This document shows positions 36,461 through 48,334 of a DNA stretch of 64,000 nt, piece after piece. Source of the stretch: a bacterium (GTDB lineage: Bacteria > Armatimonadota > Zipacnadia > Zipacnadales > Zipacnadaceae); assembly GCA_030603495.1 (NCBI GenBank), contig JAUVXR010000001.1, positions 130,993-194,992 of the forward strand. The letters are read 5' to 3'. Positions within the stretch are counted from its first letter, which is position 1. Each line of letters starts with the position of its first letter. Both the position numbers and the translations under genes were made by a program. Below the pieces are notes generated by a model. The model searched no databases. It was not told the origin of the DNA and worked only from the letters and a program-made list of their open reading frames with translations.

Positions 36461-37444
36461 GTGGCAGACACAGTGGAAGTAGAATTGATCGTGATCGGCG
36501 CGGGGGTGGCGGGATGCACCGCGGCGCTGTATGCCAAGCGCTATGGCCTAGACGTAGTCATTCTCGATAAGGGCCCGCCCGGCGGGCAGCTTATGACCGT
36601 TTCGCTAGTGGAGAACTATCCGGGCTTCCCGGACGGCATCACTGGCGTGGAACTGGGGCAGCGGGTGCGCCAGCAGGTCGAGAACCACGGCGTGGAGATA
36701 GTTGCGCGCGAGGCAACCAGCATTGAGCCGTATGAGGATGGTCGGTGGCTGGTGCACAGTGCCGACGGCGATTACCTTGCCATTGCAATTATCATCGCCA
36801 CAGGAGTTTTTCCGCGCAGCCTGAACGCACCCGGCGAGAAGGAGCTGCGCGGGTCAGGAGTCTCGTACTGCGCGACCTGTGACGGCTTCCTGTATCGCGG
36901 TGAAGTGGTGGCAGTAGTCGGTGGAGGTAATACAGCGGTCGAAGAGGCACTGTACCTAGCTGATATCTGCAAGAAGGTCTATCTCATACACCGGCGCGAC
37001 CGTCTGCGTGCGGACCCACACATCAGCCGGCAGGCTATCGAACGTGAGAATATCGAGATTATCTGGAACTCAGCGGTGGACGAGATTGCGGGGCAGACAG
37101 AGGTCGAAAGCCTACGCCTTCACGACACGCAAACTGGACAAGAGCGCCTGCTGTCAGTCACTGGGGTCTTCATCGCGATCGGGACGATAGCACATACTGA
37201 CTGGCTGGTCGGGCTAGTGGAACTGGCCGACGGCTTCATCAACACTGATATACACATGCAGACCAACCAGCCGGGCATCTTCGCCGCTGGCGATATCCGC
37301 AATACCCCGCTGCGCCAGGTGGCTACCGCCATCGGCGACGCGGCCATCGCTGGCTACTCAGCATACCAGTACGTATCCCGGCACCGGGGTCAAGAATATG
37401 GCGACTACCCAGAGCCAGGGCCAGCCGCAGCAGAGCAGCCCTGA
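36461..37444 (+). CDS. trxB: Thioredoxin-disulfide reductase
   Basis: 327 residues, FAD- and NADPH-dependent. FAD motif G-A-G-V-A-G-C-T-A-A at residues 13-22, active-site C-A-T-C near residue 145, NAD(P) motif V-G-G-G-N-T-A-V-E-E-A, and the terminal F-A-A-G-D-I-R FAD site. The GTG start has AGGAG eleven bases upstream. Its last 47 bases overlap the next gene, so it is probably the first gene of the downstream cluster's transcript. Confidence 0.95.
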   Translation: MADTVEVELIVIGAGVAGCTAALYAKRYGLDVVILDKGPPGGQLMTVSLVENYPGFPDGITGVELGQRVRQQVENHGVEIVAREATSIEPYEDGRWLVHSADGDYLAIAIIIATGVFPRSLNAPGEKELRGSGVSYCATCDGFLYRGEVVAVVGGGNTAVEEALYLADICKKVYLIHRRDRLRADPHISRQAIERENIEIIWNSAVDEIAGQTEVESLRLHDTQTGQERLLSVTGVFIAIGTIAHTDWLVGLVELADGFINTDIHMQTNQPGIFAAGDIRNTPLRQVATAIGDAAIAGYSAYQYVSRHRGQEYGDYPEPGPAAAEQP

Positions 37445-37862
37445 GCAGGCGCTGACCTGGCGAGTGTGGCTGCCCCGCAGGCGCCCGTTGCTCAGTGCAG
37501 GCGTGGCCCTTTTCATTGTAGCTCTTACTGTTGCGACAGCTCTGCTCAGTGACAGCCCGTTCTATCCAGTGCTGGTTCTGATTGTGCTGAGCGCAGCGGT
37601 GTCGGGCCATTACGTACCCTTCCGGTTTACACTCGATTCCGAGGGAGTCACAGTGGCGAGCATGTGGGGGCGGCGCACGAAGCCCTGGGACAAGCTGAAG
37701 ACCTACTGGCCCAGCGGTGATGACTGCGTCACCGTCAGCCCCTCAGTTCACCGCGGGCCACTGACCGCAGCCCGGGACATCTATCTGTACTCCGGGGATA
37801 ATCGCGCCGAAGTCCTACAATACCTGACCTGGTACCTATCGCCGGCGAAGAAGAGCAGCTAA
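37398..37862 (+). CDS. Membrane protein with two helices and a PH-like tail
   Basis: 154 residues. A Gln/Ser-rich N-terminus leads to two adjacent helices (about residues 33-52 and 55-75). The C-terminal 75 residues have the feel of the small bacterial PH-like domains found in membrane proteins (F-T-L-D-x-E-G-V-T-V, K-P-W-D-K). It begins inside trxB in another frame. Short gaps to both neighbours suggest the first two genes and the GlmL cluster form one transcript. Function unknown. Confidence 0.7.
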   Translation: MATTQSQGQPQQSSPEQALTWRVWLPRRRPLLSAGVALFIVALTVATALLSDSPFYPVLVLIVLSAAVSGHYVPFRFTLDSEGVTVASMWGRRTKPWDKLKTYWPSGDDCVTVSPSVHRGPLTAARDIYLYSGDNRAEVLQYLTWYLSPAKKSS

Positions 37863-37864
37863 GC

Positions 37865-38191
37865 ATGGTCACAGAGGTCCGCGACAACCACAAGACCCAG
37901 CAGCGCAAGGTCCTGGCCAGGGTGCTCAGGTTCATAATACAGCGGCGGATGACGGCGCCGACCCTGTTTGTGTTGGAGAGTGCCAAGCCGCTCAGCTTCC
38001 TGGCGGCGCAGTCGCTGATCGTCTTCGAACCAATTGTTCGCACAATCCTACCCCTCAATGACTACGAGGTTTTCACCGCCGCAATCGAGGACCGCGACAA
38101 CATCGAATGGATGATCCGGCAGCTCGAGGCAGTCGAAGAGAAGCAAGCCCAACGCCGTCGGACAGGCAAGCAGCAAAGCAATGAATCTTGA
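37865..38191 (+). CDS. Small basic cytoplasmic protein of unknown function
   Basis: 108 residues, helical, no membrane segment, basic at the ends and ending with a K/Q/R-rich tail. It begins three bases after the previous stop and overlaps the GlmL-like gene by eleven bases, so coupling to that gene is likely. The stretch L-F-V-L-E-S-A-K-P-L-S-F-L has the look of a conserved core. No family is recognised. Confidence 0.7.
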   Translation: MVTEVRDNHKTQQRKVLARVLRFIIQRRMTAPTLFVLESAKPLSFLAAQSLIVFEPIVRTILPLNDYEVFTAAIEDRDNIEWMIRQLEAVEEKQAQRRRTGKQQSNES

Positions 38192-39977
38192 GGATATAGG
38201 CGTCATCCTGGCCACCGATTGTGGCTCGACCACGACCAAGGCGATTCTGATCGTTCGCGAGGGCGACGCGTATCGCCTGCAGGTGCGCGGCGAGGCGCCC
38301 ACCACTGTGGAGGCGCCCTTTGAGGACGTCACCATCGGAGTACGCAATGCCATCGCCGAGGTGGAAGAGCTCTCCGGCCGACGCCTGGTGGACCCAGATG
38401 GAAGGCTGATTCGCCCAGCGACCGAAACCAAGGGTGCAGATGTCTACGTCTCCACCAGTTCCGCAGGGGGCGGCTTGCAGGTGGCGGTGGTGGGGCTGGT
38501 GCGACGGATGACGGCGGAGAGCGCGCAACGGGCAGCACTGGGCGCCGGGGCGATCGTGATGGACGCGCTTGCACTGGATGACGGGCGCCTGGCCCATCAG
38601 CGTATAGAGCGCCTGCGCCAACTGCGGCCGGATATGATCCTGATATCCGGGGGAGTTGACGGGGGCGAGGAGCGGCGGGTGGTGGAGATGGCCGAGCTAG
38701 TGGCCGCGGCCAAGCCCCGGGCGCGACTGGGAGCCAAGTTCAAGCTCCCGGTAATCTACGCCGGCAACGTGGCGGCCCGCCCCCGTATTCAGGAGGCTCT
38801 GGGCGAGGCCACCGCCCTGACGACAGTCGATAACCTCCGCCCGACTCTTGAGCAAGAGAACCTGGGCCCGGCCCGGACTGAGATCCAGGAAGAGTTCCTG
38901 CAGCACGTGATGTCGCAGGCCCCGGGCTACAGTGAGCTAATGGCCTGGGTGGATGCCGATATCATGCCGACGCCAGCCGCCGTCGGCGAAATCATCCAGA
39001 GAATCGCCCGCGACGAGGGTATCAACATCGTGGGCGTAGATATTGGTGGCGCGACCACCGATGTCTTCAGCGTCTTTGACGGGACCTTCAACCGGACAGT
39101 GAGCGCGAACCTGGGGATGAGCTACTCGATAGCCAACGTAGTGGCCGCAAGCGGCCTCGACAATGTGCTGCGGTGGCTTGAGCGCGAGATTGACGCCAGT
39201 AAGCTGGATAACCGCATCCGTAACAAGATGATCCGGCCGACGACTGTGCCTCAGTGGCTCGAGGGGCTGAAGCTCGAACAGGCGATCGCGCGCGAGGCGT
39301 TGCGCCTGGCCTTCGCGCAGCACAAGCTGCTGGCCACCGGCCTCAAGGGCATCCAGCAGGAGCGGGATATCGCGCAGGCCTTCGACCAGACGCGCGCTGG
39401 CGAGGAGACGCTGGTGGATATGATGAGCCTGGATCTGCTGGTCGGCTCGGGCGGGGCACTCAGCCACGCCCCGCGGCGGGTGCAGGCAGCCATGATGCTG
39501 ATTGATGCTTTCCAGCCAGAGGGCACCACCCGGCTGGCGGTGGACAGCATCTTTATGATGCCCCAACTCGGGGTGCTGGCTCAAGTCCACCCCGAGGCGG
39601 CGCGCCAGGTCTTCCTGCGCGACTGCCTGGTGAGGCTGGGCACCTGTATCGCGCCCGTTGGCCAAAGCCGGGCCGGCAGCCCATGTATATCGCTGACCTT
39701 CGCCGACACCGGCGAACGCCTTGACGTCGCCGCCGGGGAACTGATGCGCGTCGGGCTGACCGAGGACACAGTACGCGAGGTGATCATTGATCCGATCCGC
39801 CGATATGACATCGGTGCCGGTCGAGGGCGAGCGATAAGAACCCAGATCGAAGGTGGCGCAGCCGGGCTCATAATTGACACTCGCGGCCGACCGCTGCAAC
39901 TGCCTGAAGACCCCGCGCAGCGTCGTGAAACAGCAGTTGCATGGGCGCAGGCCGTGGACCTTTACCCGGACTCATAA
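38181..39977 (+). CDS. GlmL/MutL-type ASKHA ATPase
   Basis: 598 residues matching the MutL family (glutamate mutase L). The ASKHA phosphate-1 motif is A-T-D-C-G-S-T-T-T-K-A near residue 12, and a second actin-type motif V-G-V-D-I-G-G-A-T-T-D-V-F is near residue 280. GlmL in clostridia accompanies methylaspartate mutase E and S and is thought to act as a reactivase or chaperone. No mutase subunit, methylaspartase or B12-binding gene lies here, only uncharacterised membrane proteins. I infer a different partner. This gene anchors the best candidate for an undescribed system in the window. Confidence 0.88.
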   Translation: MNLEDIGVILATDCGSTTTKAILIVREGDAYRLQVRGEAPTTVEAPFEDVTIGVRNAIAEVEELSGRRLVDPDGRLIRPATETKGADVYVSTSSAGGGLQVAVVGLVRRMTAESAQRAALGAGAIVMDALALDDGRLAHQRIERLRQLRPDMILISGGVDGGEERRVVEMAELVAAAKPRARLGAKFKLPVIYAGNVAARPRIQEALGEATALTTVDNLRPTLEQENLGPARTEIQEEFLQHVMSQAPGYSELMAWVDADIMPTPAAVGEIIQRIARDEGINIVGVDIGGATTDVFSVFDGTFNRTVSANLGMSYSIANVVAASGLDNVLRWLEREIDASKLDNRIRNKMIRPTTVPQWLEGLKLEQAIAREALRLAFAQHKLLATGLKGIQQERDIAQAFDQTRAGEETLVDMMSLDLLVGSGGALSHAPRRVQAAMMLIDAFQPEGTTRLAVDSIFMMPQLGVLAQVHPEAARQVFLRDCLVRLGTCIAPVGQSRAGSPCISLTFADTGERLDVAAGELMRVGLTEDTVREVIIDPIRRYDIGAGRGRAIRTQIEGGAAGLIIDTRGRPLQLPEDPAQRRETAVAWAQAVDLYPDS

Positions 39978-39989
39978 GTCACGATAGCA

Positions 39990-41108
39990 ATGGCACAGGC
40001 ATATACGCCGGGATTAACCGTAACTGACTCGATCACGATCCGCAAGGAGCGGCGGCTGCCGCTGCCCGGGCGAGTGCTGGTGTCAGTGGGCCAAGCAGTG
40101 TCCGCCGAGGACGTGGTTGCGGCTACGGAACTGCCCGGCAATGTGCACACAGTCAACGTCGCGCACGACCTGAACGTCAATGGGGAAGAAGTGCCCCGAC
40201 TCATGCTGAAGGCGGAAGGCGATCCGGTCGAAGCGCAGGAGCCGATTGCTGAGTACAAGGCACTCTGGGGTATCTTCCACGCCGTCTCGCGAAGCCCGGC
40301 AGCCGGGACGATCGAGAACATCAGCCCCGTCACCGGCCAGGTGCTGGTGCGCGGCCCAGCGTTACCTGTCGAGTTGACGGCGTACATAGATGGCACGATA
40401 GTGCAGATTCTGGGCGACGAGGGCGTGATGGTGGAGTGCGGCGGAGCGCTGCTACAGGGCATCCTAGGCATTGGCGGCGAAGCCCACGGCGAACTAGCGC
40501 TCATCGCCGAAAGCCCCGACCAGCGTCTCACCGCCGAGCACATCGCCAAAGACTGTGCGGGACAAGTGCTGGTAGGCGGCTCGCTGGTAAGCCTGGAGGC
40601 GCTGGAGCACGCGCGTGAGGCCGGAGCAGTAGGCGTAATCGTCGGGGGCATTGACGCGGCCGTCCTGGACGAACTAATCGGTGAGCGCCTGGGAGTTGCC
40701 ATTACCGGCCACGAGGAGGTCGGCCTGACGCTGATCATCACTGAGGGTTTCGGTGAATTGCCCATGGCCCAGCGGTCCTTTGAGCTGCTGAAGGCACATG
40801 CAGGCCAACAGGCGTCGCTCAACGGCGCCACCCAGATTCGGGCCGGGGTGATCCGGCCGGAAGTGATCATCCCTCATCCCAGCAGCGCAGAGGTGCCGCC
40901 GGAGCCGATCATAGCAGAGCTGAAAGTGGGCAGTTCCGTGCGGCTGATCCGCGACCCCTACTTTGGCATACTGGGTACGATCACGGCACTGCCCGAAGAT
41001 CTGCAGGAAATCGAGACCGAGTCATTGGTGCGCGTGGTCCACGTCCGCAGCGACGATGGGGATGAACTCACCATCCCCCGCGCCAATATCGAGTTGATTC
41101 AACAATGA
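39990..41108 (+). CDS. Barrel/KOW-like protein of the GlmL cluster
   Basis: 372 residues, soluble, no signal. The N-terminal half has hybrid beta-barrel character (several V-x-V-G, P-A-A-G-T-I-E and T-G-Q-V-L stretches that resemble lipoyl/RnfC-type barrels). A central segment is Ala/Gly-rich and Rossmann-like (G-A-V-G-V-I-V-G-G-I). The last 60 residues resemble an SH3/KOW fold (S-V-R-L-I-R-D-P-Y-F-G-I-L-G-T-I). It starts 12 bases after GlmL and overlaps the next gene by four. I do not recognise the whole protein and suggest only that it is the cytoplasmic partner of the membrane subunits. Confidence 0.72.
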   Translation: MAQAYTPGLTVTDSITIRKERRLPLPGRVLVSVGQAVSAEDVVAATELPGNVHTVNVAHDLNVNGEEVPRLMLKAEGDPVEAQEPIAEYKALWGIFHAVSRSPAAGTIENISPVTGQVLVRGPALPVELTAYIDGTIVQILGDEGVMVECGGALLQGILGIGGEAHGELALIAESPDQRLTAEHIAKDCAGQVLVGGSLVSLEALEHAREAGAVGVIVGGIDAAVLDELIGERLGVAITGHEEVGLTLIITEGFGELPMAQRSFELLKAHAGQQASLNGATQIRAGVIRPEVIIPHPSSAEVPPEPIIAELKVGSSVRLIRDPYFGILGTITALPEDLQEIETESLVRVVHVRSDDGDELTIPRANIELIQQ

Positions 41109-42376
41109 TGACCGGCGGGCTGCGACAAACAGGCCTGACACTGGTTCTTGGGGCGCTGGTAGCATGCACGCTGGGTATCCCTGCCTGCGCGCAGGAGACA
41201 GCGCCACAAAGTTTCCTAGCGCCGACACAGGTGAGAGTTCAGGACGACGAGGCCGATAAGTCCGGCACGCGGCTGCAGGTCGAATGGACAATGCCCACGG
41301 GCGCCGAGCGCGTGGACGAATTTGTGCTCGAAGGATACCGCATATACGCAGCCGAGGCGGGCGAAGAGTTGGTGCCGTTTGAGGTCGTTGAAGGTGCCGG
41401 GACAACCGAGACAGTAGTGCGGGACCTGTGGCCAGGTAAAGAGTACGAGATCCAGTTAAGCGCGGTCTACCTGCCGGAAGGACAGAAGTGGGCGACTGAC
41501 CTCAAAGACCCCACGAAGGTCATCACTCCGGGGGCCGTAGAGACGCTGTCTGCGTCGGTCGGTCCCTACCAACCGGCAGCCGCCTGGTACGATTCTGCCA
41601 AGAGCAACGTGCTGCTTGTTGCCCTCCTCTATTCGATGATCGTTCTTCTGTGTTTCCACTTCGCTCGTCGCCGCGAGACGTACATTCGCCCCATCGCCGG
41701 TCTGGAGGCAGTCAACGATGCCATCGGCCGGGCCACCGAGATGGGCCGCCCTATGCTGTTCGTGTCAGGACTGAGCGGAATAGGCGACATTGCCACTATT
41801 GCCTCTATGCTCATCTTAGGCCACATAGCGCGGCGGGCTGCTGCATACGAAACGCCAATTATCGTGCCCTGCAACGACGCCCTCGTGATGACGGCCGAGC
41901 GGGAGATAGTGCATCAGGCCTACATCGAGGCGGGCAAACCGGACGCGTACGAACCGCAGAACATCTTCTACATCACTGACAGCCAGTTTGGCTACACATC
42001 GGCGGTGGACGGGATAATGGTACGGGAGAAGCCAGCGGCCAACTTCTTCATGGGCTATTTCTTCGCCGAGGCGCTGATCCTGGCAGAGACTGGTAATATG
42101 ACCGGAGCCATCCAGATCGCTGGCACCGACGCTGATACTCAGCTCCCCTTCTTTATCACGGCGTGCGACTACACGCTGATGGGCGAGGAGCTGTATGCGG
42201 CCAGCGCCTATCTGTCACGCAATCCCCTCCTGATGGCCCAGCTCAAGGGACAGGACTACGGAAAGGTCCTGCTGGTAGCCGGACTGCTGGTCGGAGTGAC
42301 TTTGGCTACATTGGCTATCTTTGTTGCCGAGCTGCAGCCGTGGTTCGAGAAGCTTCTCGCGTGGCTGCAGATCTGA
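41105..42376 (+). CDS. FN3-containing membrane protein, DUF6754-like, of the GlmL cluster
   Basis: 423 residues. A signal peptide (about residues 1-29, ending A-C-A-Q-E) leads into a fibronectin-type-III-like domain (residues 35-140). A membrane helix (about 165-188) precedes a conserved soluble part (190-375) that I associate with DUF6754: G-L-E-A-V-N-D-A-I-G-R-A-T-E-M-G-R-P and a P-x-x-F-I-T-A-C-D-Y segment. Another helix (about 382-405) ends it. It is the largest member of the cluster and probably spans the membrane with FN3 outside. Confidence 0.75.
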   Translation: MMTGGLRQTGLTLVLGALVACTLGIPACAQETAPQSFLAPTQVRVQDDEADKSGTRLQVEWTMPTGAERVDEFVLEGYRIYAAEAGEELVPFEVVEGAGTTETVVRDLWPGKEYEIQLSAVYLPEGQKWATDLKDPTKVITPGAVETLSASVGPYQPAAAWYDSAKSNVLLVALLYSMIVLLCFHFARRRETYIRPIAGLEAVNDAIGRATEMGRPMLFVSGLSGIGDIATIASMLILGHIARRAAAYETPIIVPCNDALVMTAEREIVHQAYIEAGKPDAYEPQNIFYITDSQFGYTSAVDGIMVREKPAANFFMGYFFAEALILAETGNMTGAIQIAGTDADTQLPFFITACDYTLMGEELYAASAYLSRNPLLMAQLKGQDYGKVLLVAGLLVGVTLATLAIFVAELQPWFEKLLAWLQI

Positions 42377-42417
42377 ACAGCGGGTCGGCAAGGCCCAGTT
42401 GATAAAAGCAGACAACT

Positions 42418-43050
42418 ATGCGCCTACAGATACCTATTGCAATCGGTTTTGTGGCGGGGATGTTTATGTTCGTCCAGTTCTTCATCCCCCACCAGATGAT
42501 CAAAGCCAGCTTTGAGGACGCGTTGGACTGGGCTATCATCATCGGGGCCTTTGCGCTGGTGCTGGGGTTGGGGAGCCTGTTTCGCACCCATATTGACAAG
42601 ATTCGCCACCGCCGGGAAGGTTTCAGCTATAGCTTCGTTACGCTGATCAGCTTTGCAGTAATGTTCTTCTTCGGCATCTTCTATAAGACGGCCCCGCATA
42701 CGACCTTTGATTGGCTGTTCATGAACGTGCAGGTGCCGTTGGAGGCAACCATGTTTTCCCTGCTGGCCTTTTTCATTGCCTCGGCGGCCTATCGGACCTT
42801 CCGGGCCCGCAGCGTGGAGGCCACGCTGCTGCTGTCGGTGGCCATAATAGTGATGCTGGGACGGGTGCCGATAAGCGACAAGATCCCCTACCTGAACCTG
42901 CACGAGATCACCGAGTGGCTCATGATGGTGCCGACGGTGGCGGCCAAGCGGGGTATTCTACTCGGCGTGGCATTGGGGGCGGTCGCCACCTCCCTGCGCA
43001 TTATCCTGGGCCTGGAGCGTTCACACCTGGGCGGAGGAGGCGGCGGCTAG
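42418..43050 (+). CDS. Polytopic membrane protein of the GlmL cluster
   Basis: 210 residues with about six membrane helices, a basic loop after helix two (H-I-D-K-I-R-H-R-R-E-G-F) and a Gly-rich C-terminus. The gap to the previous gene is 41 bases and to the next about 27, so it is in the same transcript. No family is recognised. Confidence 0.72.
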   Translation: MRLQIPIAIGFVAGMFMFVQFFIPHQMIKASFEDALDWAIIIGAFALVLGLGSLFRTHIDKIRHRREGFSYSFVTLISFAVMFFFGIFYKTAPHTTFDWLFMNVQVPLEATMFSLLAFFIASAAYRTFRARSVEATLLLSVAIIVMLGRVPISDKIPYLNLHEITEWLMMVPTVAAKRGILLGVALGAVATSLRIILGLERSHLGGGGGG

Positions 43051-43077
43051 TCGCAGGTGCAGCCGGGAGCAACTGCT

Positions 43078-43905
43078 ATGTGGGAGAAGCTACTCTACTT
43101 CGATCGGCGCATTATTTTCGTCCTGATAGGACTGGTGGTCATCATCCCGTTCCTGACGGGGTGGATGGTTCCCCATGGTCAGATTACGCCGTCCACTCAG
43201 AATCTATATAACGAGATCGAGAGCCTGGAGCCGGGCACCCCGGTGATGCTGGTCTTCGACTACGGCCCCTCGGGCATGCCCGAGCTCCACCCGATGGCAA
43301 CGGCGCTGACCCACCATATTCTATCCCGCGACCTGCGTCTGCTGGGCGTAGCGATAGTGGTGACGGGGCCTTCCATGTGTCAGGACGTTGTAGCGCCCCT
43401 AGCGGAGGAACTGCACAAAGTCGAGGGAGTTGACTGGGTGAATCTGGGCTGGAAGCCCGGCGGAGTGGTACCGATTACGCAGATGGGCGAGAACATAAAG
43501 CGCACCTATCCCAGCGATTTCCAGGGCCGCCCCACCAATGAGCTGGAGGTTATGGCGGGCATTCGCGACTACCAGGACATTGGCCTGATCATAGACCTGG
43601 CCTCGGGCAACGCGCCCGGGGCCTGGATCGCCTACGCCCACGATCCCTACAAAGTCAAACTGGCCACCGGGGTAACCGGGGTAATGGCCATAGACTACTA
43701 CGTCTACCTGCAAACTGGGCAGCTATGCGGCTTGCTTAACGGCCTCAGAGGCGCTGCGGAGTATGAACAGCTGATTGGGAAGAAGGGCTTTGGGTTCCTC
43801 GGTATGTCTTCCCAGTCGGTCGCACATCTGGTCATCATATTCTTTGTCATCATCGGCAATATCGGATACTTCACCGTGAGACGTAGTCGCCAGCGATCGG
43901 AATAA
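43078..43905 (+). CDS. Bitopic membrane protein with a soluble central domain, GlmL cluster
   Basis: 275 residues from the ATG preceded by CGGGAG (a GTG further up is possible). One helix lies near the N-terminus (residues 12-32) and one near the C-terminus (about 247-267). The roughly 200 residues between them are probably one alpha/beta domain (G-T-P-V-M-L-V-F-D-Y-G-P-S-G; L-I-I-D-L-A-S-G-N-A-P-G). That domain may bind or cleave something, but no catalytic motif is obvious. It is followed after three bases by the last gene. Confidence 0.72.
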   Translation: MWEKLLYFDRRIIFVLIGLVVIIPFLTGWMVPHGQITPSTQNLYNEIESLEPGTPVMLVFDYGPSGMPELHPMATALTHHILSRDLRLLGVAIVVTGPSMCQDVVAPLAEELHKVEGVDWVNLGWKPGGVVPITQMGENIKRTYPSDFQGRPTNELEVMAGIRDYQDIGLIIDLASGNAPGAWIAYAHDPYKVKLATGVTGVMAIDYYVYLQTGQLCGLLNGLRGAAEYEQLIGKKGFGFLGMSSQSVAHLVIIFFVIIGNIGYFTVRRSRQRSE

Positions 43906-43908
43906 GCC

Positions 43909-44643
43909 ATGCCTGGAGCTGCTGGTGGGATAAATGCAATCTGGGGAATCTCGACCGAGGTCATCGGCATCTGGCTGGCCGCGCTGCTGACCCTGGCCAT
44001 CTACAGCTTCCTGTACGGGGACAATCCGGTGTATAAGGTGGCCGAGCATGTCTTCGTGGGTGTCTCGGCGGCTTACGGGGCAGCTCTTACCTACCACCTG
44101 GCGATCATACCCAAACTATACAACCCCCTCTTCCGGCCGGATTTGGTGCCGGACGCTGACGAGCCCCAGTATATCCTGATCATCCCCGGTCTCCTCGGCC
44201 TGCTCATCTTCAGCCGGTTCATTCCCCGCTACGACTGGCTTTCGCGTTGGCCCATCGCCTTCATTATGGGCCTGTATGCAGGCTTGAGTATACCGCGAGT
44301 GATCCAGACTAACATTCTCAAGCAGATGCAGGCCACGATTGCGCCACTGCTGCCGGTTGACGCGGGCGGAGAATACCTGCTTTTCTCGGGCTTTGAGAAC
44401 TTGCTGCTGGTGGTGGGGGTCGTCTGCACGCTGGCCTACTTCTACTTCTCGCTGCCGCATCGCGGGGTGATGGGCGGCATGTCACGCGTGGGGATATGGT
44501 TCCTGATGATCGGCTTTGGCGCGGGCTTTGGCAACACGGTGATGGCCCGCATCTCGCTGCTTATCGGCCGCATTCAGTTCATGCTCTATGACTGGCTGCC
44601 GACGATCGGCATTCACCTCGGCAGCGGGCCCGGTGTGGGCTGA
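43909..44643 (+). CDS. Polytopic membrane protein, last gene of the GlmL cluster
   Basis: 244 residues with about seven membrane helices, a short hydrophilic loop after helix two (R-P-D-L-V-P-D-A-D-E) and an uncharged end. It begins three bases after the previous stop. Its last 20 residues are Gly/Pro-rich. No family is recognised. A run of dispersed repeats follows the stop codon. Confidence 0.72.
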   Translation: MPGAAGGINAIWGISTEVIGIWLAALLTLAIYSFLYGDNPVYKVAEHVFVGVSAAYGAALTYHLAIIPKLYNPLFRPDLVPDADEPQYILIIPGLLGLLIFSRFIPRYDWLSRWPIAFIMGLYAGLSIPRVIQTNILKQMQATIAPLLPVDAGGEYLLFSGFENLLLVVGVVCTLAYFYFSLPHRGVMGGMSRVGIWFLMIGFGAGFGNTVMARISLLIGRIQFMLYDWLPTIGIHLGSGPGVG

Positions 44644-45420: not shown

Positions 45421-46290
45421 TCAGTCAGGGCCGATCTCTTCAGCAACCAGCCGCTGGTAAGCCTCGCGCAGCCGCCGGGTGAGTGGGCCGACATCTCCGG
45501 GGCCGATGGCGCACCCCTCGAAGAGGGTCAACGGCATTATTTCCATGATGCTGCCTGTCAGAAAGGCTTCCGCGGCCCCCTGGAGTTGATACAGTTCCAC
45601 AGGCCCTTCGGAAAACGGAACCCCTTGGGCAGCACACAACTCCAGTACGCAGGCACGGGTGATGCCGGGCAGGACCCCGGCACTCGCCGGAGGCGTGAGC
45701 ACGCGGCTGTCGCCCTCAACGAGGAATAGATTACTGGCCGAGGCCTCAGCCAGTTGCCCAGAAGTATTCAAGAAGATCGCCTCGTCCACCCCGACCCGTT
45801 GAGCCTCAGCACGGGCGAGGATGTTACCCAAGTAGTTCACCGTCTTGATGTTGGACAACGGCGAATACTCGTTCCGCCGGGAGCTGGCCAGAACCGTGGA
45901 CATTCCCGTCTCATAAAGCTGCTCAGGGTAGCCCGATAGTGGCCGGACCCAGACGGTGACCGACGGAGTGGAGGCGTCCAGTTCAGAAGGGGCGCCGCCC
46001 ACGCCACGGGTCACGGTCAGACGAACGTATGCCTCCGACAGGCCGCTGGCCACCAGAGGCGTCTGCACAGCCTCCCGCAGCTCCTCAGTAGTCATGGGCA
46101 AGCGCATGTGGAGCTGCTCGGCGCCAGCCGTCAGTCGCGCCAGGTGAGCGTCAAGCCGAAAGATCTGTCCCAAATAGGCGCGCATTGTCTCAAAGAGGCC
46201 GTCGCCGTACAGCCGGGCGCGGTCGAGGCAACTACATACGGCCTCGTCCGGGGCAAGCAACTGTCCGTCGTGCCAGATCAGCTCAGTCAT
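45421..46290 (-). CDS. pabC: Aminodeoxychorismate lyase (class IV PLP aminotransferase fold)
   Basis: 289 residues of fold-type IV. The PLP lysine lies in [10 protein letters not shown] near residue 150; the N-terminal G-D-G-L-F-E-T and terminal T-G-S-I-M-E-I segments are typical. Fold IV also includes branched-chain aminotransferases, but the context settles the role: it overlaps pabA by four bases, and pabB comes first. It should release pyruvate from aminodeoxychorismate to give p-aminobenzoate for folate. Confidence 0.88.
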
Positions 46291-46886
46291 TGGCTTTGGG
46301 CTCCCTGATAAGCCAGGAAATTGCGCAGCAGGTCGTGGCCGAATTGAGTCAGGATGGCCTCAGGATGGAACTGCACGCCCTCGACGGGGCAATCACGGAA
46401 CCCGCGGTGGCGCAGGCCCATGACCTCGCCCCAGTCGGTGTGGGCGGTGATCTCCAGGCAGTCCGGCAAAGCCTGCGGATCAACGACCAGCGAATGATAG
46501 CGCGTGGCGCGGAAGGGACTGGGCAGATCGCGCAACACGCCGAAGCCAGTGTGGTGGACCATCGAGGTCTTTCCGTGCATGATCCGCGGTGCGCGGACGA
46601 CATTGCCCCCAAAGACGTGGCCGATGCACTGGTGCCCCAGGCAGACACCGAGAATGGGGACCTTGCCGGCGAACTCCATGATCACCTCATTGCTGATGCC
46701 TGCCTCCAGTGGCGTGCCCGGACCAGGTGAGATGATGAGGTGCGAAGGCCCCAACTTGCGAATACCGGCGCAGTCAATGGCGTCGTTACGAAAGACCACC
46801 GGCTCGTGCCCCAGCTCGCCGATGTACTGGTAGAGGTTATAGACGAAGGAATCGTAGTTGTCTATCAGCAGCACCAATTCTATCAT
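46287..46886 (-). CDS. pabA: Aminodeoxychorismate/anthranilate synthase glutamine amidotransferase
   Basis: 199 residues, class I amidotransferase. Motifs: [10 protein letters not shown] near residue 9, the nucleophile elbow G-V-C-L-G-H-Q (Cys near 80), and V-Q-F-H-P-E-A for the catalytic His-Glu. It supplies ammonia to PabB. Start and stop overlap both neighbours by four bases (ATGA). The same subunit may serve tryptophan synthesis if no separate trpG exists. Confidence 0.93.
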
Positions 46887-48334
46887 ACCCCCGAGCCCTT
46901 GACTGGGGCTCGCCAGAGCGCTTCCCCCAGTGCCCGGCCCTTGTCGAGGGTCTCCTGGTACTCGGCCGCGGGATCGGAGTCGGCGACGATGCCCCCGCCC
47001 ACCTGGTAGTAGGCATTGCCGTTGGCGACGAGGATAGTACGGATGACAATGCTAAGCTGCATATGCCCGTCGAAGCCCAGGTAGCCGATGTTGCCCGTGT
47101 AGACGCTGCGCTGAGTCGGCTCCAGTTCGTCAATGATCTCCATCGAGCGGACCTTGGGCGCTCCGGTAATCGAGCCGCCGGGGAAGACGGCGCGCATCAG
47201 GTCAATATTGTCGCGACCGTTCGCCAGCTTCCCGGTGACCGTTGCCACCAGGTGATGCACCGTCGGGTAGCTCTCCAGCACTACCAGATCGGGGACGCGA
47301 ACAGTGCCGAAATCGCACACACGCCCCAGATCATTGCGTTCCAGGTCTACAATCATTACCAGCTCAGCATTATCCTTTTCGCTATTCAGCAGCTGTTCAG
47401 CTAGTTGGCGGTCCTCTTCAGGCGTCTGACCGCGCCGGCGAGTGCCTTTGATCGGCCGGGTTTCCACATAGCCGTCGGTGACTTCCAGGAACTTCTCCGG
47501 CGATGCGCTCACCACCTGGCCGGTGCCAAAGTCGAGGTAGCCAGCAAAGGGCGCCGGATTGATCTCCCGCAGACGCAGGTACAACTCCCAGGCCGGAATC
47601 TCGAGCGGTGCCTGAAAGCGTTGGGAGAGGTTGACCTGGAAGATGTCCCCGGCGGCGATGTACTCCTTGGCGCGTGCCACCGCTGCCAGGTACTCGTCAC
47701 GAGTGAAGTTGCTCTGCGGCTGACACCGGGCGGCGGGCTGGACCGAAGTCGCCGGCTGCGGCGAAGCCGCCTCAATGCGGCACAGCAGTTGCTCAACGCG
47801 CGCCTCGGCACGCCTTCGGCGGATCGGACCAGCCGGCGCTGGCAGGCCCGTGCTCAGCAGATAACCGCGCTGGCTGGCCTCGTCGTAGGCGTAGATGACA
47901 TCGTAAAGGGCCATATAGAGGTCGGGAATGCCGATGTCGTCAACTGCCGTGCGGGGCAGCCGTTCGAGGAAGTGGCACAGGTCGTAGCCAAAATAGCCGA
48001 CGGCACCTCCCCAAAAGGGCACCGGAGCTTCGGTGCAGGCCAGCTCGTAGCAACACAGGAGTTTCTGGAGCACCGCGAAGGAATCGCCTTGCTCAACTGA
48101 AGTCGTGTCACCATCAGCAATCGTGATTTGCGGGCCCTTACTGGTAACTACCAGAAATGGATCGCAGCCCGCGTAGGAGTACCGGCCGTACCGGTCCATC
48201 ACCATCGCGCTGTCTATCAGGAAGGGGTGCTCGCCCTGCAGCAGCGCTCCGCAAGCGACGAAGGCGGGCGGCGCGTCAGGAACCTCCGCAACGAGCAAGT
48301 TACCCGACCAAGTTGTAGTGCAGGAAGATGGCAT
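46883..48334 (-). CDS. pabB: Aminodeoxychorismate synthase component I
   Basis: 483 residues. The chorismate-binding domain shows [10 protein letters not shown] (Lys in the P-I-K-G-T motif is the PabB mark; TrpE has P-I-A-G-T), [17 protein letters not shown] and the final [11 protein letters not shown]. It makes aminodeoxychorismate from chorismate with PabA. It is the first gene of pabB-pabA-pabC. No strong ribosome-binding site is seen at the ATG. A loose gap separates it from the YchF-like gene upstream. Confidence 0.93.

Follow-up and report, generated by a model that had tools for sequence, protein, structure and literature searches.

A conserved eight-gene cluster of Armatimonadota and other bacterial phyla encodes a MutL-family ASKHA ATPase, its probable adaptor and a predicted inner-membrane module

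We investigated a gene cluster in a 64,000-nucleotide stretch of DNA (here called the window) from a bacterium of the family Zipacnadaceae, phylum Armatimonadota (GenBank assembly GCA_030603495.1, contig JAUVXR010000001.1, positions 130,993 to 194,992 of the forward strand; estimated genome completeness 93.5%). A first-pass annotation, made by a model from the sequence alone, had described six genes at this locus: a MutL/GlmL-family ATPase of the acetate and sugar kinase/Hsc70/actin (ASKHA) superfamily (g1, here MutL), a barrel/KOW-like cytoplasmic protein (g2) and four membrane proteins (g3 to g6), one of them combining an FN3 domain with a DUF6754-like region. As shown in Table 1, all six open reading frames (ORFs) are present on the plus strand within positions 38181-44643, and their coordinates were confirmed together with the spacings, which from MutL through to g6 are +12, -4, +41, +6 and +3 bases; both FN3 and DUF6754 exceeded their Pfam cut-offs in g3. 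Two small genes, B and C, lie immediately 5′ of MutL, with the stop codon of B 2 bases upstream of C and an 11-base overlap between C and MutL. A Pfam scan of the cluster proteins gave no family above the cut-off for B, g4, g5 or g6, and a weak match to Biotin_lipoyl alone for g2. The six-gene cluster is thus real, but from the comparisons below the unit comprises eight genes, B and C included, which almost certainly make up one conserved system.

Table 1. Genes, motifs and domains of the cluster, in window coordinates.
Feature	Position	Strand	Evidence
trxB, thioredoxin reductase	36461-37444	+	NCBIfam TIGR01292, 344.9 bits (cut-off 343.45)
B, 154-aa membrane-anchored protein	37398-37862	+	Neighbor of C and g3 in the majority of 20 DUF6754 loci from Armatimonadota
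C, small charged protein, 108 aa	37865-38191	+	Directly 5′ of MutL or g3 in various phyla, Nitrospira and Zixibacteria among them
g1 (MutL), long MutL/GlmL-family ASKHA ATPase, 598 aa	38181-39977	+	PF13941, 421.8 bits
ASKHA phosphate-1 motif DCGSTTTK, MutL residues 13-20	38217-38240	+	D13, G15, S16, T17, T19 and K20 invariant in alignment A5
ASKHA phosphate-2 motif VDIGGATTD, MutL residues 286-294	39036-39062	+	D287 and G289-D294 invariant in alignment A5
ASKHA adenosine motif VGSGG, MutL residues 421-425	39441-39455	+	G422, G424 and G425 invariant in alignment A5
MutL C-terminal extension, about residues 486-598	39636-39974	+	In all system MutLs of alignment A5
g2, 372 aa, predicted cytoplasmic adaptor: barrel-sandwich hybrid, alpha/beta middle, KOW-like end	39990-41108	+	Domain matches among orthologues
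g3, 423 aa: signal peptide, periplasmic FN3, transmembrane segment, cytoplasmic DUF6754 alpha/beta domain, transmembrane segment (predicted)	41105-42376	+	Pfam, AlphaFold, positive-inside statistics
g3 FN3 domain, residues 51-121	41255-41467	+	Pfam fn3, E 3e-6, 27.6 bits (cut-off 25)
g3 DUF6754 region, residues 158-406	41576-42322	+	PF20539, 377.5 bits (cut-off 27); 27 invariant columns in alignment A1
g4, 210 aa, predicted multi-pass membrane protein, about 6 transmembrane segments	42418-43050	+	Hydropathy; conserved position between g3 and g5
g5, 282 aa: transmembrane segment, periplasmic Rossmann-like alpha/beta domain, transmembrane segment (predicted)	43057-43905	+	AlphaFold, positive-inside statistics
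g6, 244 aa, predicted multi-pass membrane protein	43909-44643	+	Hydropathy; conserved as the module's last gene

MutL passed the gathering cut-off of the broad MutL family PF13941 (27 bits; score in Table 1) and fell below those of three narrower models, with 226.3 bits against the GlmL equivalog NF040745 (cut-off 475), 222.8 bits against the Or-4 model NF040744 (cut-off 600) and 175 bits against the GlmL family model (cut-off 204). A canonical GlmL-like protein (locus L032) is 33% identical to it and lacks the C-terminal extension of ∼115 residues that the MutLs of the system have in common (alignment A5). The ASKHA motif residues are invariant, and MutL is therefore predicted to carry a complete ASKHA nucleotide site and likely binds nucleotide. 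Judged by its sequence, the window MutL is not GlmL. The first-pass annotation had noted that GlmL accompanies glutamate mutase E and S, and had stated that such a mutase pair with conserved linkage to this MutL elsewhere in the genome would argue against a single system. No such linkage emerged: family searches did not find glutamate mutase E (PF06368) in the window's own genome, found it in 1 of 251 Armatimonadota genomes (G063, which also encodes a separate MutL scoring 570 bits) and found it above the cut-off in none of 33 DUF6754 genomes of other phyla. A B12 mutase partner for MutL was rejected on the absence of PF06368. Annotating MutL by its family name would be misleading, since these bacteria have no glutamate mutase for it to serve.

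The likely partner of MutL is instead g2. Among ten g2 orthologues, Biotin_lipoyl matched eight, RnfC_N seven, NQRA_N six and KOW one. In Cloacimonadota, Fermentibacteria and one other bacterium we found fusion ORFs of about 910-1067 aa in which a MutL domain (the first ∼500 residues) is followed by a g2 domain. Ten fusions were checked, one of them ended by a contig edge, and in all ten the g2 alignment matched toward the C terminus (E 2e-21 to 5e-44), but it matched none of four unfused MutLs used as controls; one fusion is 37% identical to the window MutL and 31% to the window g2. Since fusion is standard evidence of physical or functional pairing, MutL and g2 very probably act as a pair. 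In most fusions, neither the C-terminal extension of MutL nor the KOW-like end of g2 is present. The fusion ORFs are additional genes in those genomes and are often located away from the membrane module (loci L167-L175), where they may serve other partners.

The four membrane proteins g3-g4-g5-g6 form what we refer to as the membrane module. In 155 g3 sequences, the bias of lysine and arginine residues indicated a cytoplasmic DUF6754 domain (138 versus 3 at the first transmembrane segment and 127 versus 6 at the second), and in 110 g5 sequences the bias was reversed, placing the domain in the periplasm (95 versus 5 and 99 versus 1). The g3 and g5 domains are thus predicted to face opposite sides of the membrane. 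AlphaFold models of g3 (mean predicted local distance difference test [pLDDT] 87.7) and g5 (pLDDT 96.0, predicted template-modeling score 0.91) have an identical predicted order of elements, with seven helices and six strands alternating between two transmembrane segments (TM-a-b-a-b-a-b-a-b-a-b-a-b-a-TM). Foldseek searches with the g3 model returned mostly FN3 structures, which is uninformative for DUF6754, and the g5 model had no PDB match at E≤0.001, the matches being generic Rossmann-like ones with a TM score of about 0.3. Sequence searches of the PDB with profiles of g2, g3, g5 and MutL gave nothing convincing. The periplasmic N terminus of g3 is variable and may have no domain, a single FN3 or some 700 additional residues; FN3 is thus optional, and most Armatimonadota outside the window's class lack it. 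We note that the DUF6754 proteins of five Cloacimonadota loci (L110, L131, L133, L142, and L146) are about 940-1040 aa long, with ∼700 mostly unannotated N-terminal residues.

We then compared the distribution of these genes in 251 sampled Armatimonadota genomes, in which g2 was counted from alignment A3. DUF6754 was detected in 220 genomes and g2 in 230; MutL was detected in 231, with matches above the cut-off in 226 of them. When only strong matches were considered, 213 genomes had all three and 20 had none; genomes without just one of the three were mostly incomplete assemblies. The 20 genomes without the system largely represent coherent lineages, among them all three sampled genomes of family f14, both of family f31 and three of genus g66 in family f17. 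In most of 20 loci from other families of the phylum, B-C-g3-g4-g5-g6 form a constant block, and MutL-g2 is encoded at a separate site. A second arrangement, that of the window's class, has MutL-g2 located between C and g3, and in a third, seen in L064 and L069, MutL follows g6; the same parts have thus been joined in at least three ways. Because B and C are part of this conserved block across loci, we assign them to the system.

When 84,980 species genomes were scanned, at least 578 stretches with DUF6754 relatives were recovered, the best 80 of which were analyzed as loci. The close named matches were to Candidatus Zipacnadia and other Armatimonadota, and the best 80 loci came from Armatimonadota, WS1, WOR-3/Stahlbacteria, Poribacteria, Latescibacterota, Nitrospira, Cloacimonadota, Zixibacteria, Edwardsbacteria, Fermentibacteria, Coatesbacteria, Mcinerneyibacteriota and one planctomycete metagenome-assembled genome. 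Some of these 80 loci were ended by contig edges, and g2 matches across the 80 were filtered by length and score; g3-g4-g5-g6 occurred in this order in 72 of them, and the full MutL-g2-g3-g4-g5-g6 run was present in 24, including 11 of the 16 Nitrospirota loci. Such recurrence of gene set and order across phyla lies, by sequence comparison, far beyond chance. Homologues of the membrane genes always occurring without MutL had been named as a finding that would speak against a single system, but the 33 DUF6754 genomes outside Armatimonadota all encoded MutL, and 31 of them g2. Up to six DUF6754 copies were present per genome (the complete WOR-3 chromosome G251, and G262), with MutL and g2 single there. 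Tandem g3-g4-g5-g6 modules were also observed, three in each of L098, L135, and L148 and two in each of L109, L114, and L134. A mobility check gave no match of the window DUF6754 protein on plasmids or in phages. The synteny check suggested with the original prediction thus came out in its favor: the gene order recurs across phyla, and Armatimonadota mostly have either all or none of the three genes.

The genes surrounding the system were less constant. In the window, the block is flanked on the other strand by a cdsA-like gene on the left and an acetyltransferase gene on the right; because of this and of the small gaps and overlaps, trxB through g6 could plausibly be read as a single transcript. 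The trxB gene overlaps the first possible start of B by 47 bases, although the true start of B may be downstream. The proposal that the upstream genes share the transcript thus agrees with their close spacing, but trxB was found upstream of the cluster only in the window and its close relatives L074 and L075 and, in the form of a distantly related gene, in two WOR-3-like loci (L094 and L128); it is probably on the same transcript, yet does not belong to the conserved system. Just downstream, at 45421-48334 on the minus strand, are an aminotransferase class IV gene and pabA/pabB-like genes, probably for aminobenzoate synthesis toward folate. The neighborhood comparison revealed no additional gene that was universal across loci. 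In L118 (261-16975) and L179 (3112-15259), the system is located between gcvT-gcvH-gcvPA-gcvPB and the lipoate-protein ligase gene lplA, in a single-strand run with small gaps or overlaps that forms an apparent operon, and gcv or lplA genes were also near the system in L045, L117, L156, L176, and L180. Glycine cleavage genes are therefore recurrent neighbors and do not define the function; glycine cleavage as a general function was rejected because the phyletic distribution of the system does not follow that of GDC-P. Other recurrent neighbors were a Memo-family gene (PF01875) 3′ of g6 in 13 Nitrospirota loci (e.g., L153, 12567-14003), a 1-deoxyxylulose-5-phosphate synthase-like gene in eight loci of three phyla (L039, L042, L050, L100, L124, L136, L149, and L151) and a glmU-like gene in six loci. 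A role in anti-phage defense was also rejected, as PADLOC returned no match for the eight proteins.

Comparison with known systems yielded likenesses to parts of the cluster. With GlmL and Or-4, MutL shares the ASKHA family, intact nucleotide motifs and a plausible accessory role, but it differs in its C-terminal extension, in scores far below the equivalog cut-offs, in having g2 rather than GlmE/GlmS as its partner and in its association with a membrane module. The g2 protein has weak domain-level similarity to RnfC and NqrA, which are likewise cytoplasmic partners of membrane complexes, but it has a KOW-like end and no SLBB or Fe-S domain, and Rnf/Nqr membrane subunits were not among the cluster proteins. 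ASKHA proteins act at inner-membrane complexes in PilM-PilN/O of type IV pili, FtsA and MreB. If the ASKHA protein here docked on membrane proteins as a nucleotide switch, it would resemble these cases; the membrane partners here are different, however, and MutL and g2 to g6 matched no PilM, FtsA, MreB or pilus family. The g3 protein is a clear member of DUF6754 (PF20539), a family without an assigned function. From these sequence comparisons, the ATPase family is known, and none of the described kinds that we tested corresponds to the system, the adaptor or the membrane design.

Taken together, these data point to an inner-membrane machine, probably engaged in transport, that is operated by an ASKHA ATPase and its adaptor as a shared pair; as a whole this is our best explanation, a tentative one at a little short of even chances. 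We consider it rather likely that the proteins, MutL included, form a physical membrane complex. In the mechanism that we propose, MutL-g2 would dock on the cytoplasmic DUF6754 face of g3, and the ATP cycle of MutL would drive or gate a conformational change; a core formed by the multi-pass proteins g4 and g6 would relay this change to the g5 domain in the periplasm and also to FN3 in proteins that have it. As a genome can carry several modules but a single MutL-g2 pair, this pair may be a common energizer, with the modules setting specificity, by analogy with one ATPase serving several importers. Most likely, such a machine would transport a small substrate or export a component of the envelope, and ATP-driven transport is a possibility to which we give less than even odds. 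The annotated membrane-anchored assembly with an ASKHA ATPase is thus supported as one system; that it is "powered or switched" by the ATPase is still an inference. More doubtful is the broadest form of the proposal, in which a near-universal core machine of Armatimonadota, also present in Nitrospira and many candidate phyla, would use the ASKHA pair to energize interchangeable inner-membrane modules, each built on two Rossmann-like domains of like design on opposite membrane faces, and would constitute a new class of ATP-driven transport. Several observations weigh against the machine that we favor. Profile comparison did not detect homology between g3 and g5 (probability below 1%), and their element order is the one feature of the models that suggests a common fold. 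In family scans g4 and g6 matched nothing, and no transporter family was hit. MutL-g2 is apart from the module in many genomes, and the complete WOR-3 chromosome G252 (L134) has four DUF6754 modules and MutL, with g2 not detected. Finally, the association statistics (Fisher P = 7e-25 for MutL and g2 and 8e-17 for DUF6754 and MutL) overstate independence because of shared ancestry.

The separate location of MutL-g2 in some genomes would also fit an ASKHA assembly or reactivation factor that loads, matures or repairs DUF6754 complexes without powering them, in the way that Hsp70 works and that GlmL is proposed to act on mutases. A single MutL-g2 pair alongside up to six membrane modules is consistent with such a factor, as is the fact that MutL relatives elsewhere are enzyme accessory proteins, but MutL-g2 is in an operon with the module in several groups (the window's class, Nitrospira and Zixibacteria among them), which would be unusual for a general assembly factor; we regard this alternative as unlikely, if still a serious one. 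A signaling role, in which FN3 and the periplasmic g5 domain would act as envelope sensors, with cytoplasmic MutL-g2 under the control of the DUF6754 face, would make use of the variable g3 N terminus and of the domains on both membrane faces. Two multi-pass proteins exceed the needs of a sensor, though, and no kinase, cyclase, regulator or DNA-binding gene was universally conserved nearby, so that signaling seems quite unlikely.

The three other explanations have little in their favor. That RnfC_N and NQRA_N barrel-sandwich models match g2 orthologues at about 1e-5, together with trxB upstream in the window and lipoyl/glycine-cleavage genes near other loci, could suggest a redox module of Rnf/Nqr-like design with g2 as the RnfC/NqrA-like subunit; however, Biotin_lipoyl models score similarly on g2, the scanned proteins matched no Fe-S, SLBB, FMN-attachment or Rnf/Nqr membrane family, and no known redox pump contains an ASKHA ATPase, making this design very improbable. 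Still less credence can be given to a system serving the glycine cleavage complex and lipoylation, for which the operons of L118 and L179 and the gcv/lplA neighbors in five more loci would speak: GDC-P (PF02347) is absent from the window's genome and from those of many relatives despite the system, and at least 11 of the 20 Armatimonadota genomes without the system have it. The family name and the identity to L032 would be expected if MutL were a B12-mutase reactivase with membrane genes as chance neighbors, but the missing mutase E, the scores below the equivalog cut-offs and the conserved linkage and co-loss with the membrane genes leave room only for other B12 clients, and we find this scarcely credible.

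The searchable literature, mainly open-access, contained no mention of DUF6754 and no description of the system, although an earlier description is possible, and nothing on GlmL in Chloroflexi or on glutamate mutase in Armatimonadetes; the statement that the assembly has no described function agrees with this search. The cluster unites eight linked families, at least five of them without functional annotation, in about 85% of the sampled Armatimonadota and in at least eight other phyla. Nitrite-oxidizing Nitrospira are among the carriers, and such conservation makes a basic role in the cell envelope likely. Cultured members of Armatimonadota and Nitrospira exist, so that the system is testable. 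If the ATPase does power the modules, this would be a new role for ASKHA proteins as drivers of membrane transport.

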